Assembly (NCBI RefSeq): GCF_021021555.1
Contig: NZ_JAINWA010000003.1
Location: 1,240,001 to 1,304,000 of the forward strand
DNA length: 64,000 nucleotides
From: Teretinema zuelzerae
GTDB lineage: Bacteria; Spirochaetota; Spirochaetia; Treponematales; Treponemataceae
Direction of reading: 5' to 3'
The notes beneath the pieces are model-generated. The model did not search any database. It had not been told where the DNA came from and worked only from the letters and a program-made list of their open reading frames with translations. This document shows, one piece after another, positions 33,533-41,076 of the stretch. Within the stretch, counting starts at the first letter, position 1. Each line of letters starts with the position of its first letter. Position numbers and translations under genes: made by a program.

Positions 33533-34171
33533 TTATCGAATATCAAGAACTTTTATCGAATACGGTTTCGTCGCTTCCAAAAGCGCGTCCTTGGAAATAT
33601 CGGAAACCTTTATCAAACACCTTTTGTTCGTAACATCGCTGCCCTCGCAGATGACCAGCGCATGAATGTTTCCGCCCTTCTCGGTAATGCAGGAAGCCAG
33701 CTTGTGCAACTCGCCTCTTTCTTCGGGGACCAGAAGCGTGATGCGCACTCCCTCCTGATACGCGCCGAACATTTTTATGAACAGCCTGTACAGGTCTCCA
33801 TCGGATACGATGCCGGTTAAAACGCCGTTTTTTAATACCGGCAGTGCGCTGATGTTGTTATCGACCATTATGCGGGCGGCTTCTTCGACCACCTCGTTTT
33901 CATCGACGGTTATGACGTTCTTTTTCATAACCTGCTCAACTTTCAACCGGGAGAGGAGGTGGCTCATCTCGTACATATCGAGGGTTGTCGCTACCGACGG
34001 GCTTGCATTGACAATATCCCTTTCCGTGATGATACCGACAAGTTTGTTGGATTTGTCCAAAACCACAAGCCGCCCGATCTTTTCTTTTTTCATGATGGAG
34101 CGGGCTTCCGGAACGGACATATCCGGATGAATAAATCTCGGATTAAGAGTCATAACATCTGCGACGACCAT
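33533..34171 (-). CDS. CBS-CBS-ACT domain protein
   Basis: 212 aa. Two CBS domains (about 5-60 and 75-133; VADVMTLNPRFIHPDMSVPEA, VEQVMKKNVITVDENEVVEEA) bind adenosyl ligands in related proteins, and an ACT-like domain (about 140-212, VRITLLVPEERGELHKLASCI) usually binds amino acids. It resembles AcuB-type proteins. AAGGAGG lies 6 nt before the ATG. As the last gene of the liv operon (45 bp after livF), it may report intracellular amino acid or nucleotide status to the transporter; that is inference. Cytoplasmic. Confidence 0.82.
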   Translation of the reverse strand: MVVADVMTLNPRFIHPDMSVPEARSIMKKEKIGRLVVLDKSNKLVGIITERDIVNASPSVATTLDMYEMSHLLSRLKVEQVMKKNVITVDENEVVEEAARIMVDNNISALPVLKNGVLTGIVSDGDLYRLFIKMFGAYQEGVRITLLVPEERGELHKLASCITEKGGNIHALVICEGSDVTNKRCLIKVSDISKDALLEATKPYSIKVLDIR

Positions 34172-34216
34172 AGCATGCCTCCTTATGATGGATGATACTA
34201 TGATTATACATCATAA

Positions 34217-34930
34217 TCAGACTCCGAGGTATGCTTTCCGCACTTCCTCGTTCGCTAAAAGATTTTCAGCGGTATCCGCGAGCTTTATCGCTCCGTTCTG
34301 CAGAACATATCCCTTATGAGCGATCTTCAAGGCCATGTAGGCGTTTTGTTCGACCAGAAATACCGTCGTCTTTCGTTCACGGTTTATCTTGCCGATTATT
34401 TCGAAAATATGCTGAACAAAAATCGGCGCAAGACCGAGAGAAGGCTCGTCAAGAAGAAGAATCTTCGGACGCATCATAAGAGCCCGGGAAATGGCGAGCA
34501 TCTGCTGTTCGCCCCCCGAAAGGGTTCCCCCCTGCTGATGACGCCGTTCCGCAAGCCGGGGAAAAAGCTCGAAAACCTCTTCAAGATCGCGTCGAATGCC
34601 TTCTTTGTCGGAACGCAAGAAAGCTCCCATATCCAAATTTTCGGTTACGGTAAGCTGCGGAAAGATGCGGCGGCCCTCGGGAACCTGAGCTATGCCGAGC
34701 TCTACGATCTTGTTCGGAGCCATTCTGGTTATGTCCTTGCCGTCCAGAACGATGGTTCCCGAACGAACCGGCGTAATGCCGCAAATCGACATCAACGTCG
34801 TGGTTTTACCCGCTCCATTCGCGCCGATAAGGGTTACGATCTCTCCTTCTTCGACGGTAAGGGAGATATCTCTGAGCGCTTGTATATTTCCGTAAAAAGT
34901 TTGAATCGAATTCAGTGTCAGCAATGCCAT
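34217..34930 (-). CDS. livF: Branched-chain amino acid ABC transporter ATPase LivF
   Basis: 237 aa. Walker A GANGAGKTT, signature LSGGEQQ, Walker B ILLLDEPS and the switch His region (VFLVEQN) are intact. The C-terminal KAYLGV is typical of LivF. It powers the LivHM channel with LivG. A single base separates its start from the livG stop. Confidence 0.95.
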   Translation of the reverse strand: MALLTLNSIQTFYGNIQALRDISLTVEEGEIVTLIGANGAGKTTTLMSICGITPVRSGTIVLDGKDITRMAPNKIVELGIAQVPEGRRIFPQLTVTENLDMGAFLRSDKEGIRRDLEEVFELFPRLAERRHQQGGTLSGGEQQMLAISRALMMRPKILLLDEPSLGLAPIFVQHIFEIIGKINRERKTTVFLVEQNAYMALKIAHKGYVLQNGAIKLADTAENLLANEEVRKAYLGV

Positions 34931-34931
34931 G

Positions 34932-35720
34932 TCACTCTCCCAGGTACGCCTTGATTACTTCAGGGTTGCTCTTGATTTCTTCGGGTACGCCTTCGGCGAT
35001 CATGCGGCCGTAGTCAAGCACGTATATTTTCTCGGATACATTCATAACAAGACTCATATCGTGTTCAATCAATAGAATTGAAACGCCTTCTCCGTCCCTG
35101 ATCTTATGAATGCTCTCTTCCAGTTCTTTTGTTTCCTGCGGATTCATGCCGGCGACGGGTTCGTCCAATAGCAGGAGAAACGGTTCCGTTGCGAGCGCCC
35201 GGGCGATCTCCAACCGCCGCTGGGCTCCGTACGGGAGATTTCTTGCGGCGTCGTTTACGAAAGAATGAAGATTCATCTTTCTGAGAATTTCATAACTATC
35301 GTGAATAACCTTTTCTTCTTCGAGACGAGTCGCCGGAGTTCTAAAAATGGATTGAAACACGCCCGCCTTTAGCGAATTATGACGAGCGAGCATAACATTC
35401 TCCAGAACGCTCATATTCGAAAAAAGTCGGATATTCTGAAAGGTTCGAGCCAGTCCTTTTTGATTGATTACGTTGGGCTTCAAGCCTTGTATCTCTTTTT
35501 TTCCGCTTCCGTCGGGATCGATGCTCACGGTGCCCGAAGTCGGCTTGTACACGCCGGTTATGCAATTGAAAATCGTCGTTTTTCCCGCTCCGTTAGGCCC
35601 GATCAGCGCGGTTATCGAGCCTTCCTTGAGCGATAGAGAGGCGGAATCGATCGCGCGTAGCCCGCCGAACACCATCGATATATCATTAAGCTCCAAAATT
35701 GTGCGTTCTGATGCATTCAT
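34932..35720 (-). CDS. livG: Branched-chain amino acid ABC transporter ATPase LivG
   Basis: 262 aa. Walker A GPNGAGKTT, a LivG-type signature (LPYGAQRRLEIARAL), Walker B LLLLDEPVAGMN and the long insert after Walker A (QKGLARTFQNIRLF) that marks LivG. It pairs with LivF. Its ATG overlaps the livM stop (TAATG). Confidence 0.95.
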   Translation of the reverse strand: MNASERTILELNDISMVFGGLRAIDSASLSLKEGSITALIGPNGAGKTTIFNCITGVYKPTSGTVSIDPDGSGKKEIQGLKPNVINQKGLARTFQNIRLFSNMSVLENVMLARHNSLKAGVFQSIFRTPATRLEEEKVIHDSYEILRKMNLHSFVNDAARNLPYGAQRRLEIARALATEPFLLLLDEPVAGMNPQETKELEESIHKIRDGEGVSILLIEHDMSLVMNVSEKIYVLDYGRMIAEGVPEEIKSNPEVIKAYLGE

Positions 35721-36994
35721 TATTGATTTCCCTCCCCCGTCGTCCGGAAGGCGTATTTTTTACGGTTTCTCGGTAGCAGCCCGTCAGGCTTGAAAATAAT
35801 TATAACGATCATCGCTACCCCGTAAATGAGCATGCGATACTGGGAAAGCGCGCGGAAATATTCAGGCAAAAGCTTCAGGAGAAGGGCTCCGACGATCGCT
35901 CCGGGAATAGATCCGGTGCCGCCGATTACTACAGCCATCAGGATCATTATGGATTCCCACAGGGTGAAGCTGTCCGGATTGATGAAAGTCGTTTGAGCGG
36001 CGAGCAAAACGCCGGCTATTCCCGCCCAGAAAGCGCCGAGCGCGAAGGTAATCAGCTTATTGCGCACCAGATCGATGCCCATAGCCTCGCATGCGATTTC
36101 ATCTTCCCTCATGGCTTCCAGGGCGCGTCCGGTTCTTGAATCCTCGATTCTTCTTGCTACCAGTATCGACAAAGCTACCAGGGCGACTGTTATATAGTAG
36201 ATATACACCGCGGCGGCGCCTGGCTTCAGCTTCATATTAAAGAACCAGGGACGCGGGATCAGACTGATTCCCGACGCTCCTCCGGTAAGGTCTCCTGAAT
36301 TCTGGATGAACATGCGGACGATTTCTCCGAAGGCGAGCGTAATGATCGCCAGATAATCACCGCGGAGCCTCAGCACCGGGAGGCTTACCAGCACTCCGAA
36401 TATGGTCGCGAAAATTCCGGCCAGGGGAAGCGCGATCCAGAACAACCAGCCGGCATTAATACCGGCGGCGGCGAACACCGAACCCGCGTATTTCCATAGC
36501 AAACCGTACGTATACGCGCCCACCGCGAAAAAAGCCGCGTACCCTAAATTGAGCAATCCGCCCATTCCTACGTGAATGTTCAATCCAAGCGCGAGAATTA
36601 CGTATATCAGAGCGGTTATCATGATGTTCGTATGATACATGCCGAACAAATGCGGATACAAAACAACGAACAGCATCACCGCGGCCAACCCGCTGAAGCG
36701 GACTGTCTTCTTTTCCCACAAAGGAGATACGATTTTTTTTACGCGGTATGAGATCGATGAATCATCGGGTTTTTGTCCGCGGCGTTCGTTCCACACGAGA
36801 GCGCGCGTCCAAATCCACGATAAGACAAAAGCAGCGACTCCTACGATGGGCACCATTACCCATCGGAATTTAACCGTCGCGGCGCCGCCGGTAACGGAGA
36901 CCTTCATCACGGTCAGAGGGAATAGCAAAACAACGAACCAAAGAGATATTTTGACGCGGTCGAACAGATTTAACGCAATTTTCTTTATTTCCAT
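35720..36994 (-). CDS. livM: Branched-chain amino acid ABC transporter permease LivM
   Basis: 424 aa. It has about ten hydrophobic segments; the core from residue 125 onward (HTNIMITALIYVILALGLNIHVGMGGLLNLGYAAFFAVGAYTY region) matches LivM, as does the EAA-like loop around GRALEAMREDEIACEAMGID. An N-terminal extension of about 110 residues with two helices and a charged loop is longer than in E. coli. It starts 3 nt after the livH stop. Confidence 0.93.
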   Translation of the reverse strand: MEIKKIALNLFDRVKISLWFVVLLFPLTVMKVSVTGGAATVKFRWVMVPIVGVAAFVLSWIWTRALVWNERRGQKPDDSSISYRVKKIVSPLWEKKTVRFSGLAAVMLFVVLYPHLFGMYHTNIMITALIYVILALGLNIHVGMGGLLNLGYAAFFAVGAYTYGLLWKYAGSVFAAAGINAGWLFWIALPLAGIFATIFGVLVSLPVLRLRGDYLAIITLAFGEIVRMFIQNSGDLTGGASGISLIPRPWFFNMKLKPGAAAVYIYYITVALVALSILVARRIEDSRTGRALEAMREDEIACEAMGIDLVRNKLITFALGAFWAGIAGVLLAAQTTFINPDSFTLWESIMILMAVVIGGTGSIPGAIVGALLLKLLPEYFRALSQYRMLIYGVAMIVIIIFKPDGLLPRNRKKYAFRTTGEGNQ

Positions 36995-36997
36995 CGT

Positions 36998-37900
36998 TCA
37001 AACCTTCTGCTTTATATTTTTTCCGAGAATTCCGGCGGGCTTAATGACCAGAATTACGATCAGGATTACGAAGGCGAACGCGTCTTCATAATCGCTGGAG
37101 ATGTAGCCTGTTCCAAGGCTTTCAGTCCATCCGAGGATGAAGCTTCCCAGAACGGCTCCGGGTATGCTCCCGATTCCGCCGAGAACGGCAGCCACAAAAG
37201 ACTTGATGCCGGCGACAAAGCCGATGTAGTAGTTGATCTGTCCCATATATGAGCAAATCAATACTCCGCCTACCGCTGCCAGAGCTGATCCTATGATGAA
37301 GGTGACGGAAATAACCTGATTGATGTTTACGCCTAACAATTGCGCCATGTCTTTATCCTGAGCCGTCGCCCGCATGGCCTTGCCGATTTTTGTAAACTTA
37401 ATGATGAAAACCAATAACAACATCACCACGGTTGTGGTAACCAGGATGATGAATTGAGTCGAATTGATGTACCCCTTCACCGGAGCAAGAAACTCCAATT
37501 CCGGCAGATATGAAGGAAATGAAAGATATTTTTCAGTCTGGCTCAACAGCACAAAATTTTGGAGAATGGTTGAAATACCGATAGCGCTTATCAGCGCCGA
37601 CAGGCGAGGCTTGTTCCGAAGCGGGAGATAGGCGATCTTCTCTATGGTAACGCCGAAAGCAGCTGAAAAGAATACCGACACGACTACGGAAATAAGCAAC
37701 ACGAGATATATCGGAAAACCGGCGCTGTATAAAAATCCGCCGACGATGAGAGCGGTAAAGCCGCCGATCATATAGACTTCGCCGTGGGCAAAATTGATGA
37801 GCTGCACTATACCGTACACCATTGTGTATCCGAGAGCCATCAAGGCATATATGCTGCCCTTGGCAGTACCGCTTAGAAACAGCTTAAGAAAATATTCCAT
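36998..37900 (-). CDS. livH: Branched-chain amino acid ABC transporter permease LivH
   Basis: 300 aa from ATG 37900, which has CAAGGA upstream and the standard LivH N-terminus; an ATG at 37930 adds ten unrelated residues. Eight membrane helices are likely, with the signatures GSIYALMALGYTMVYGIVQLINFAHG (in part) and MRATAQDKDMAQLLGVN. It forms the channel with LivM. It lies after a hairpin that probably limits readthrough from livJ. Confidence 0.94.
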   Translation of the reverse strand: MEYFLKLFLSGTAKGSIYALMALGYTMVYGIVQLINFAHGEVYMIGGFTALIVGGFLYSAGFPIYLVLLISVVVSVFFSAAFGVTIEKIAYLPLRNKPRLSALISAIGISTILQNFVLLSQTEKYLSFPSYLPELEFLAPVKGYINSTQFIILVTTTVVMLLLVFIIKFTKIGKAMRATAQDKDMAQLLGVNINQVISVTFIIGSALAAVGGVLICSYMGQINYYIGFVAGIKSFVAAVLGGIGSIPGAVLGSFILGWTESLGTGYISSDYEDAFAFVILIVILVIKPAGILGKNIKQKV

Positions 37901-37952
37901 GAAAACCGATCCTTGCCAGACGTCTTGCATACAAGTAAAAAGAATCGCCTGT

Positions 37953-38002
37953 AAAAAAAATAAGAAGCGTCCGCCGGCGCGCGGAAGGCGCGCCCGGCGG
38001 AC
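37953..38002 (-). terminator. Attenuator between livJ and livH
   Basis: Minus strand: GTCCGCCGGGCGCGC pairs with GCGCGCCGGCGGAC with one bulged base (37969-38002), then GCTTCTTA and eight Ts (37953-37960). The offset T-run suggests partial termination, giving more binding protein than permease. Confidence 0.7.
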
Positions 38003-38028
38003 AAGCCGCTAGCTGCGGCGGAATTAGC

Positions 38029-39150
38029 TTATTTCAGCTCTACATACTTTCCGCTCTGTACCTGGAATACAGAGAAGCCGAAGCCGATAACGTCGCCGCG
38101 TTCGTCGAAGCTGATGTTGCCCAACGAAGTGTCGACATAGTTCGAGCGCAGAGCGGCTGTGATATCCTCATACTTCTCTGATCCGGCTTTGTCGATAGCG
38201 TTCAGAAGTGCCTGAGTGGCGGCATACGCTTCCTTGAAGAAGGCGCCGGGTTCTTCGCCGTACGCGTCTTTATGTGAAGTAATCGCCTTCACGGCAACGG
38301 GGAGAGCGGAGGTGTCCATGGGTCCGGTCGCGTACACGCCCTCGGCGTATTTTCCGGCGACTTCAATGAACGTATTGTCTTTGATTCCGTCGCAGGAAAC
38401 GAACGGAACGGTAATTCCCTTTTCTCTCATCTGCTGAACGAGCTTAGAAGCTTCGGGGTGGTATCCGCCCCAAACGACGCCTTCGATTCCTGCATTGCCG
38501 ATTTTATTCACGACAGCGGAATAGTCGGGAGCTCCGGGATTAACGCCTTCGAAAAGAACGATTTCAATTCCGGTTTCTTCGGCGAATGCCTTTACGAGAT
38601 CCGCGAATCCTTTGCCGTAATCGCCCTTGTCGTGCAGAACGGCGAGCTTGGTAAGCTTGAGCGTATCCTTAATGAATCCGACGGCAAGCTTTGCCTGCGC
38701 ATCGTCCGGAGCGATAGTGCGGAAGAAGTTGGGATATTCGCCGCTCTGGGTAAGAGGCGGATTCGTCGCGGAGGGAGAGATGCAAACGAGTTCTGAATCT
38801 TTGTAGATTCCGAGTGCGCTCTTGGTGGCGCCTGAGCAGATGTGGCCGATTACCGCAACGACTTTGTCGCTCACAAGCTTGGAAGCGGCATTGGTCGCGA
38901 GTTCGGGCTTGCACTGATCATCAACGATCACGAGCTCGATTTTCTTGCCTCTGATGCCGCCTTTGGCATTGTACTCTTCGGCAACAAGCTTTGCGGCGTT
39001 GACGGTCGGAAGACCGTAGGATGCGAGGTCTCCGGAATGGGCTCCGGCGACGCCGATTTTGATTACTTTCGAATCCTTGTTAGCGCATCCGCCCGCCAGC
39101 AAAACTGCCGACGCCGCGAAAACCGCCAAAACTACATGACGAACTTTCAT
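38029..39150 (-). CDS. livJ: Branched-chain amino acid-binding lipoprotein (LivJ-like)
   Basis: 373 aa from ATG 39150, which follows AAGGAG; an ATG at 39183 would place charged residues before the signal peptide. The lipobox is LAGGC (Cys22). The mature protein starts KVIKIGVAGAHSGDLASYG, typical of type 1 periplasmic binding proteins of the Peripla_BP_6 family, with ICSGATKSALGIYKDS and ISPSATNPPLT ligand-region motifs. It captures leucine, isoleucine, valine or related amino acids at the cell surface for LivHMGF. First gene of the operon. Confidence 0.94.
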   Translation of the reverse strand: MKVRHVVLAVFAASAVLLAGGCANKDSKVIKIGVAGAHSGDLASYGLPTVNAAKLVAEEYNAKGGIRGKKIELVIVDDQCKPELATNAASKLVSDKVVAVIGHICSGATKSALGIYKDSELVCISPSATNPPLTQSGEYPNFFRTIAPDDAQAKLAVGFIKDTLKLTKLAVLHDKGDYGKGFADLVKAFAEETGIEIVLFEGVNPGAPDYSAVVNKIGNAGIEGVVWGGYHPEASKLVQQMREKGITVPFVSCDGIKDNTFIEVAGKYAEGVYATGPMDTSALPVAVKAITSHKDAYGEEPGAFFKEAYAATQALLNAIDKAGSEKYEDITAALRSNYVDTSLGNISFDERGDVIGFGFSVFQVQSGKYVELK

Positions 39151-39170
39151 ATGGTTCTCCTTCTTTCTCG

Positions 39171-39186
39171 CCCGTGTTCTCACGGG
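39171..39186. other. Small perfect hairpin in the livJ leader
   Basis: CCCGTG, TTCT loop, CACGGG. It lies just upstream of the livJ ribosome-binding site in the predicted 5' untranslated region and might affect stability or translation. No known riboswitch was recognised. Confidence 0.4.
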
Positions 39187-39255: not shown

Positions 39256-39290
39256 AAAAAAAAGGGACTGTCAGAAATTCCGACAGTCCC
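39256..39290 (-). terminator. Terminator of the ribosomal protein operon
   Basis: Minus strand: GGGACTGTC, 9-nt loop, GACAGTCCC (39264-39290), followed by eight Ts (39256-39263). It marks the end of the long tuf-to-zinc-ribbon transcription unit and shields livJ. Confidence 0.9.
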
Positions 39291-39311
39291 CTCTTTAGGC
39301 TGCTAGACGAA

Positions 39312-39488
39312 TCAAACGGCCTTACCGTTTTTGATCGCCGCCTTGCAGGTTTTGCATATCTTCGACTTTACGCCGGCGACTTCCTGATCATACAGTGTCT
39401 TAACCTGCTCGCGCTTGCACACTGGGCAAACGCCGCGTCCATGATTTGGGTTGGTACGAATACCTTTTCCGCGATGTGCTTTCGACAT
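39312..39488 (-). CDS. Small zinc-ribbon protein, 58 aa, at the end of the alpha operon
   Basis: Read directly from the minus strand: it starts MSKAHRGKGIRTNPNHGRGV and ends AAIKNGKAV. Cys21/Cys24 (CPVC) and Cys45/Cys48 (CKTC) form a four-cysteine zinc site; the flanks are rich in Lys and Arg. GAGGAG lies 6 nt before the ATG, 3 nt after the rplQ stop, and the operon terminator follows 22 nt after its stop. Position, size and basic charge suggest a ribosome-associated or RNA-binding protein, but it is not a standard ribosomal protein that I recognise. Coding potential is supported by the strong site, the paired motifs and the tight spacing. Confidence 0.82.
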   Translation of the reverse strand: MSKAHRGKGIRTNPNHGRGVCPVCKREQVKTLYDQEVAGVKSKICKTCKAAIKNGKAV

Positions 39489-39491
39489 GAT

Positions 39492-40031
39492 TTACTCCTC
39501 AGCGCCTTCAGCAGCCTTTGCTTTCTTCGCCGCAGGCTTCTTTTCACCGTCAGCTTTCTTAGCAGGTGCTTTTTTAGGAGCCGCAGCTTTCTTATCGGCT
39601 GCAGGCTTCTTTTCAGCGGCTGGTTTTTCCGCGTCTTTCTTAGGCTTCTTCTCGGCTTTATCTTCAGTTACCAACTGAAAATCGACCAATTCAAGGATCG
39701 CTACTTCGGCGGCATCGCCCTCGCGGAAGCCCAACTTCAGAACACGGGTGTATCCGCCGGCACGATCTTTCATGCGGGGTCCGATATCTGTAAAAAGCTT
39801 CGCAAGCACGGCTTCATCATGAATGATGCGCGCTACCTGGCGGCGATTGTGAACTGTATCAACCTTAGCGCGGGTGATAAGCTTCTCAGCGGTTCTTCGT
39901 ACTTCCAAAGCTTTCGGCTGAGTAGTTGTTACTCGCTCGTACCTGAACAAAGACGTCACCATATTGCTGTGCATGGCACGGCGATGAGACGCATTGCGTG
40001 AAAGCGGATTAAAGCCGTTTTTATGCTTCAT
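39492..40031 (-). CDS. rplQ: 50S ribosomal protein L17 with Lys/Ala-rich tail
   Basis: 179 aa. Residues 1-122 are a complete L17 ([22 protein letters not shown]). The remaining 57 residues are an added low-complexity tail of Lys, Ala, Pro and Glu (repeats of KKPAAEKK and KKAPAKKA type), similar in composition to histone H1-like proteins; E. coli L17 has only a short tail. The gene overlaps the rpoA end by 11 nt. Confidence 0.95.
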
Positions 40032-41076
40032 CTGATTCTTCCTTCTGCTTGGGCAACTTGATAGAATTCTTAAGGTGACTGTAATCGGTCATGCCTAAAC
40101 CAAGATTCCATTCGAGAAGCTTTTCGCGAATTTCCTGCAGACTCTTTTTGCCGAAGTTTCTTGTCTTGGCAATGTCGTCTTCAGTTTTCTTGGTTAATTC
40201 ACCAATCGTCCTGATATTTGCGTTTTTGAGGCAGTTCGACGAACGAACGGATAACTCAAGTTCTTCAACCGGAGTATTGAGAAGCTGACGAACGCGTTCG
40301 TCCTCTTCATCAAAATCGTCATCCTTTCCGATCTCATTCTCGTTGAAGTTGACAAAGGTTGTAAAATGATCTTTTGCAATCTTCGCCGCTTCAGCAAGAG
40401 CGTTTTCAGGGGATATTGTCCCGTCTGTCCAGATTTCAAGGATAAGCTTGTCGTAATCGTTCCGCTGTCCGACACGGCACGGTTCAATGGCGTACTTCAC
40501 CTTGGTTACCGGGCTGTAGATCGCGTCCATAGGAATGGTTCCGACAACCTCGATGTATTTCTCGTTAACTTCGGCAGGAACATAGCCCCTGCTGAAATCT
40601 ACCTGAACCTCAATCTCGACCTTGCCGCCTTCCATCATTTCAAAAATGTGGAACGGCTTGCTTAGGATCTCCAACTGAGTGTCACGGGAGAACATATCGC
40701 TCTTAACTGAAACGGGTCCCTTGAATTCAAACAGAAAAGTATCCTGTTCTACATCTTCCGGAAGCCGCAAACGAATCTGTTTAAGATTATTCAGGACTTC
40801 CAAGGTATCTTCTACAACATTCGGAATCGTCTCAAACTCGCTGGAAATACCATGAGGCACCCCATCAGCATCATAGGATGTAATCTTCACTGCGGAGATT
40901 GCGTATCCCTGGATGGAAGAAAGAAGGACGCGACGAAGCGTATTTCCGACAGTAGTTCCAAAACCGGTCTCGAAGGGAGAAGCCACAAATTTTCCGTAAT
41001 CAGATCTTGATTCATCTTGCTCGAAGGTAATACCCTTAGGCTTTTTGAATCCTTTTAGCAGATTTTTGCGGGCCAT
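40021..41076 (-). CDS. rpoA: RNA polymerase alpha subunit
   Basis: 351 aa. The N-terminal assembly domain (about 1-235, with [25 protein letters not shown]) and the C-terminal domain (about 265-340, [20 protein letters not shown]) joined by an acidic linker ([16 protein letters not shown]). The C-terminal domain contacts UP elements and activators. It starts 11 nt after rpsD in the alpha operon. Confidence 0.97.

Follow-up and report, generated by a model that had tools for sequence, protein, structure and literature searches.

A small zinc-finger-like protein encoded behind rplQ in treponemes, a candidate accessory ribosomal protein of Spirochaetia

What does the last gene of the large ribosomal protein operon of a treponeme encode, and does its product act on the ribosome? 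The question is raised by a 64,000-nucleotide stretch of DNA, here called the window, in which a 58-aa open reading frame (ORF) follows rpoA and rplQ (Table 1). Its translation is MSKAHRGKGIRTNPNHGRGVCPVCKREQVKTLYDQEVAGVKSKICKTCKAAIKNGKAV, a chain of 6.3 kDa with a pI of 10.1 and four cysteines (C21, C24, C45, and C48), and it begins 3 nt after the rplQ stop at 39492. The hairpin of the terminator behind it is far more stable than its 200 shuffles (-9.2 +/- 2.1 kcal/mol), and this terminator was absent from the output of a simple pattern scan. A basic four-cysteine frame with a strong ribosome-binding site, lying between rplQ and the operon terminator, had already been picked out in a sequence-only reading of the locus, and all of these features were confirmed on the minus strand. 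By eye, the C terminus of rplQ itself is a K/A/P-rich tail, some 55 residues long, that appears to be an addition to the bL17 core. An apparent branched-chain amino-acid ABC transporter cluster, also noted by eye, occupies 33533-39183 (minus strand) past the operon terminator and comprises a binding protein, two permeases, and two ATPases, then a CBS-domain protein.

Table 1. Coordinates of the 58-aa ORF, its parts, and its neighbors in the window
Feature	Coordinates	Strand	Remarks
58-aa ORF, small zinc-finger-like protein (TP0214 family)	39312..39488	minus	stop codon included; ATG start at 39488
N-terminal arm, residues 1-20, conserved and basic (MSKAHRGKGIR...GRG)	39429..39488	minus	from alignment; RNA-inserting role putative
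First CxxC, C21-C24	39417..39428	minus	from sequence and alignment; CPVT or CPIT in C- forms
Second CxxC, C45-C48	39345..39356	minus	at strand-helix junction of the model; SKVG, SKIG, or SKMA in C- forms
GAGGAG ribosome-binding site of the 58-aa ORF	39495..39500	minus	within the last rplQ codons, just before the stop
Intrinsic terminator closing the operon	39258..39296	minus	hairpin and U-run; fold -26.4 kcal/mol, z -8.15
rplQ (bL17), 179 aa, upstream neighbor	39492..40031	minus	first 130 residues used as query, 18/18 genomes matched
rpoA (RNA polymerase alpha), next upstream of rplQ	40021..41076	minus	tblastn query for tree

The pattern of substitution indicates that the 58-aa ORF is a real gene under purifying selection. 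Against 10 relatives (12 were supplied, of which L131 and L167 failed the start pattern), pN was 0.14-0.20 and pS 0.63-0.88, and all pairs of the 11 sequences together differed at 561, 426, and 1825 first, second, and third codon positions, respectively. Small size, basic character, and purifying selection, all traits of ribosomal proteins, were thus found in this protein. Eleven columns are invariant in 16/16 aligned sequences (M1, K3, H5, R6, G7, G17, R18, G19, C21, K30, and K46), and five of them are lysine or arginine. The linker at residues 12-16 and the tail are variable, the latter often being rich in Ala, Glu, and Pro. Long tails of this kind were seen in four homologues (L029, L050, L042, and L031; total length up to 107 aa), and other homologues stop at residue 54-58.

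Of 40 genomes, among them the window's own, 36 gave good matches (E <= 3.7e-15). The four genomes that yielded none (G003, G007, G008, and G010) also yielded no rplQ (0/4), and since the rplQ query matched all 18 of the other genomes tried, these absences look like assembly gaps. With a profile of 16 members, strong matches (E <= 3.3e-18, counted by hand) extended to 81 of the 296 phylum genomes, of which 49 belong to the window's family (its own genome counted), 10 more to its order, and 22 more to its class, Spirochaetia; none lies beyond the class. A further 22 phylum genomes, with best E values of 0.0038-0.1, look like chance. Among the genomes listed, none of the window's family or order was without the protein (173 unmatched genomes lie outside this list). 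In a named genome collection scanned with one start pattern, 458 stretches encode relatives, and the best 80 of these come from Treponema, other spirochaetes, or an organism given only as "bacterium" (L175). Ten pattern matches arose in viral contigs, none of which was confirmed. Within the class, the Borreliaceae-like family f7, family f8, the single genomes of f9 and f50, and one f51 genome yielded no match. A profile of cysteine-poor (C-) forms run over 23 genomes matched both positive controls and, in 13 noncontrol genomes, gave only matches at E >= 0.006, which we take as chance. The ribosome can therefore do without this protein.

The position of the gene behind rplQ characterizes the window's order. 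The sequence-only reading had taken this linkage to be more general. Of 52 parsed loci (L026 and L051 being omitted), 48 have rplQ upstream at a gap of -17 to 289 nt, and the four exceptions all belong to other orders. Among the best 80 of the 458 relatives, rplQ lies within 1,200 nt upstream in 78/78 readable loci, one of the remaining two (L187) being unparsed and the other (L182) offering only 81 nt of upstream sequence. In 20 genomes of other Spirochaetia orders (f6, f10, f11, and f51-f55), rplQ was not found upstream; 19 of these were checked within 1,200 nt upstream and the twentieth is G088, and three are common to both locus sets. By eye, the neighbors at eight loci outside the window's order do not look ribosomal, and at two f6 loci the gene stands near a gene for an era-like assembly GTPase. 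The codon usage of copies outside the order is near that of ribosomal genes in three of seven genomes and not in the other four. Because the linkage holds only at the level of the order, the gene is either older than the linkage or independent of it.

Searches of Pfam, NCBIfam, PHROGs, and PDB sequences gave no match above threshold, in agreement with the earlier view of the protein as unassigned. The two outcomes that the sequence-only reading had set against itself, absence from close relatives and membership of an unrelated family, did not occur. Matches below threshold mostly cover one zinc knuckle, and the Gin anti-sigma factor family (PF10764) remained under its gathering cutoff (15.7 bits versus 27; E = 0.015). 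Matches to Csm1, Lar, and aMBF1 in NCBIfam (best E 0.002) were taken as knuckle matches. A weak PDB match to eL43/L37Ae, restricted to the first knuckle (E 0.24-0.26), was set aside, as were weak matches to Rad50 and LUC7. In a structure model of the protein (pLDDT 86.7; pTM 0.61), a hairpin (residues 29-37 and 40-45) runs into a helix (residues 46-53) that bears the second CxxC. The best structural matches include treble-clef zinc fingers, all of them weak (Foldseek best E 1.0; VIA Z <= 3.1), and the fold libraries held nothing at E <= 0.001 and no Z >= 5. From the model there is thus a weak indication of a fold closer to a treble clef than to a two-knuckle zinc ribbon. Excerpts of the open-licence literature yielded no functional assignment for the protein.

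In T. pallidum, and probably in T. denticola, the gene is already annotated, so the expectation that it could be missed by automatic annotation proved wrong there. In T. pallidum it is apparently TP0214/TPANIC_0214, an assignment made by place and mass: TP0213 is listed as L17 and TP0216 as DnaK (excerpts of PMC5015957), TPANIC_0215 is given as grpE (excerpts of PMC8525777), and the 65-aa family member from the T. pallidum-like genome G095 weighs 7.0 kDa, agreeing with the 7-kDa TP0214. In G095 the gene lies, by eye, between rplQ and a frame that is followed by dnaK-like and dnaJ-like genes. The T. denticola counterpart is probably TDE0793, by its place right after rplQ (TDE0792); it is annotated as a "conserved hypothetical protein" in the excerpted text of PMC3914990.

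Published expression data for these genes largely point to the ribosome. In the abundance table excerpted from PMC5015957, the uncharacterized TP0214 heads the top-50 list for T. pallidum with an NSAF of 19.6, ahead of L34 (13.1), S18 (12.5), L17 (9.4), L28 (8.9), S14 (7.6), and L33 (7.2), and RpoA falls outside the top 50. This 2016 result is repeated in the part of PMC9200625 available to us, and a later (2023), deeper T. pallidum proteome, as excerpted from PMC10600179, does not have TPANIC_0214 as highly abundant. According to the comparison quoted from PMC8525777, TPANIC_0214 was higher in rabbits (log2 1.28), as were all 27 large-operon genes (0188-0213). In the T. denticola co-culture tabulated in the excerpt of PMC3914990, TDE0793 changed by +2.22, rpoA by +2.40, and rplQ by +2.20; in two red-complex co-cultures from the same tables, TDE0793 has only a "-" entry, and rpoA changed by -1.73 and -1.80.

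A second line of evidence concerns the zinc site. Two CxxC pairs, which should be able to bind one zinc ion, are present in 104 of 110 aligned rows, a count in which a few places occur twice. The six C- rows come from five genomes: G095, G298, and G310 of the T. pallidum genus (g29), G272 (f52), and G315 (f55). In these, T takes the place of C24, S that of C45, and G (A in G315) that of C48, and G095 shows that a T. pallidum-like genome carries the C- form. On a tree built from rpoA and rplQ of 26 genomes, with weak basal support, the C- forms are scattered, as are the absences in f7, f8, f9/f50, and one f51 genome, and the three C- genomes of g29 are interrupted by a C+ (four-cysteine) genome, G070. 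Judged from these sequences, zinc is dispensable for the protein in five genomes of one genus and two further families. Of the zinc-ribbon form proposed earlier, the two CxxC pairs stand, and the fold leans, weakly, toward a treble clef. Zinc-type forms of uS14 and bL36 persist in the T. pallidum-like genome, which argues that it has not generally shed its zinc sites. Short basic chains with a four-cysteine zinc site that some lineages have lost are known among ribosomal proteins (bL31, bL32, bL33, bL36, and uS14), and C+/C- change is said to have been described as a habit of ribosomal proteins by Makarova in 2001.

Taken together, these data make it probable that the protein is a lineage-specific accessory ribosomal protein of Spirochaetia, ribosome binding, RNA contact, and zinc binding all being inferred. 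A shade less confidently, we lean toward the fuller proposal of an unrecognized, stoichiometric family of Spirochaetia ribosomal proteins that has undergone repeated zinc-site loss and gene losses and whose member TP0214 would rank with the most abundant T. pallidum proteins; a new bL or bS number would then be called for. The basic N-terminal arm (residues 1-20) would thread into rRNA, and the C-terminal half would form a small head of CxxC, beta-hairpin, and CxxC at the start of a helix. One zinc ion would staple this head in most members read, and in some lineages the head may have been kept zinc-free once three of its four cysteines had been substituted. The arm would then be buried in rRNA, with the tail outside.

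This proposal draws on the position of the gene as the last of the operon, with its own ribosome-binding site and a terminator behind it; in the window's order, placement at the end of the S10-spc-alpha operon behind rpoA and rplQ would tie its supply to that of the ribosome. It draws also on conservation in the 81 phylum genomes, all of the class, on the reported abundance of TP0214 and co-expression with the ribosomal operon, on C+/C- switching in five genomes of one genus and two other families, and on the high pI with its five invariant basic residues. Counted against it are the deeper proteome without high TPANIC_0214 abundance (excerpts of PMC10600179), the combination of no upstream rplQ, non-ribosomal-looking neighbors, and mixed codon usage (3/7) outside the order, the absences from f7, f8, f9, f50, and one f51 genome, and the "-" entries of TDE0793 in red-complex co-cultures, together with the lack of an rRNA site tied to presence of the protein. 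On the last point, 25 genomes were searched for 23S rRNA. The alignment comprised 17 full-length copies, in which 11 genomes that have the protein differ from 6 that lack it (f7 and f8) at 23 columns. These columns are scattered, and the f50 genome keeps the absence state in 5 of the 17 separating columns that it covers, so no 23S rRNA site was localized. A tie to the N-terminally extended uL30 of Borrelia was likewise rejected, since that extension does not match the absence pattern of the protein. The extension, 44-46 residues before the domain, was seen only in four f7 genomes (L259-L262) among 21, the other 17 having at most 12 residues before the domain at likely starts (in G166 an alternative start lies 28 residues ahead of it); five further genomes without the protein do not have the long uL30.

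The sequence-only reading had left a ribosomal, ribosome-hibernation, or RNA polymerase-associated role side by side. The expression data and the loss of zinc ligands favor the ribosomal part, and the polymerase part fares poorly. Unlikely, yet the likeliest of the alternatives, is that the protein is a non-structural factor in assembly, hibernation, or translation that binds the ribosome part-time and is supplied with the operon. Such a factor would share the operon and the expression evidence, would account for a protein that is not universal within the class, and could be reconciled with the era-like GTPase gene near the two f6 loci and with subthreshold NMD3 matches in two members (E 0.0088 and 0.038). 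The plan of an arm plus a zinc head, with C+/C- switching, is however typical of structural ribosomal proteins, and no factor family scored above its cutoff.

Many small zinc proteins bind RNA polymerase, and rpoA lies two genes upstream, so a small polymerase-associated protein made together with RpoA has also to be weighed; some members show weak, subthreshold matches to zinc ribbons of the TFIIB and Elf1 types. We regard this role as improbable, because the gene is not near rplQ in 19 genomes of other orders and no polymerase subunit or anti-sigma family scored above its cutoff. The excerpted abundance table, moreover, places TP0214 among and above the ribosomal proteins and RpoA outside the top 50 (PMC5015957). 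The published expression and the repeated loss of zinc ligands thus favor the ribosome over RNA polymerase.

We also doubt that the protein is a shortened duplicate of bL28, although such an origin would still be compatible with a place in the ribosome. The two share a zinc knuckle, a hairpin, a CxxC, and a GK tail, and C- forms of the protein read CPVTG...DGKKVxxS, much like C- bL28, which we take to have VTG and S in place of the cysteines. HMM-HMM comparison pairs the second hairpin and CxxC with bL28 at 53% identity over 19 columns, but the probability of this pairing is only 2%. A home-made bL28 profile singled out 3 of the 52 members by score (15.9, 12.1, and 10.9 bits; best E 3.3e-5 over 52 sequences). 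The 15.9-bit member beats all 200 of its own shuffles, and the best of 52 shuffled members with cysteine positions kept reached 15.9 bits in 2 of 200 sets; as a comparison of sequences, the profile score of these three members is suggestive. Against this, PF00830 was not hit by the window protein, by eight further members, or by the three best-scoring members (12 in all), and bL28 itself was found in 30 of 31 genomes and is C+ in all 20 sequences read, which implies that the window protein is replacing nothing.

The description of TPANIC_0214 as a candidate antimicrobial peptide (excerpts of PMC10600179) would make it a secreted peptide; this is very improbable for the last ribosomal-operon gene across an order, evolving under purifying selection, the more so as basic composition may drive such predictions and, in the excerpted account of PMC9200625, the proteins taken forward to peptide tests were Tp0451a and Tp0749 alone.

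Identity with bL38, one of two previously unannotated proteins (with bS22) reported for the Borrelia ribosome and likewise small, basic-spined, beta-stranded, of similar size, and from the same phylum (excerpts of PMC10618245), is next to impossible: the Borreliaceae-like genomes do lack the window protein, but the identity is refuted by a separate bL38 relative in 11/11 carriers tested. The bL38 counterpart from a Borreliaceae-like genome matches PDB 8fmw_Ai (E = 3.1e-24), and bL38 relatives (E <= 2.7e-4) were found in 19/19 further Spirochaetia genomes, those 11 and 8 without the window protein. The relative in the window's own genome lies outside the window (G000 C1:119429-119581; E = 6e-8), and 8fmw_Ai was not listed at E <= 10 by profiles of the window family. 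Since these genomes have their own bL38 relative beside it, the window protein is a further, different gene. Separately, the 19 genomes suggest that bL38 may be class-wide.

Should the protein indeed be an accessory ribosomal protein, treponeme ribosomes would carry a component missing from the well-known model ribosomes and from the solved Borrelia ribosome. The nature of what seems to be a highly abundant "hypothetical" protein in the syphilis bacterium would be explained, the description of that protein as a candidate antimicrobial peptide would need correcting, and ribosomal proteins would gain one more example of zinc loss.

Several known systems resemble the protein in part. Treble-clef fingers (GATA, LIM, FYVE, RING, the ClpX zinc domain, and uS14) have the same order of CxxC, hairpin, and CxxC at the start of a helix, but none matched significantly or was seen to share the conserved N-terminal arm. 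The C+/C- ribosomal proteins combine, as this protein does, a basic chain with a losable four-cysteine site; they do not match it in sequence, and each matching genome shows one strong copy of the window protein rather than a C+/C- pair. bL28 (PF00830) has two CxxC motifs with a hairpin before the second, as here, but carries a loop of the type SH or SK...RR.W.PN and lacks the MSKAHRGKGIR arm. bL38 of Borrelia burgdorferi (BB0162; PDB 8FMW chain Ai) was, by the excerpted account of PMC10618245, small, basic, and overlooked until the ribosome was mapped; its sequence differs, and it has its own relative in every tested carrier of the window protein. TP0214/TPANIC_0214 and TDE0793 are, by their place after rplQ, the same gene, annotated until now only as hypothetical.
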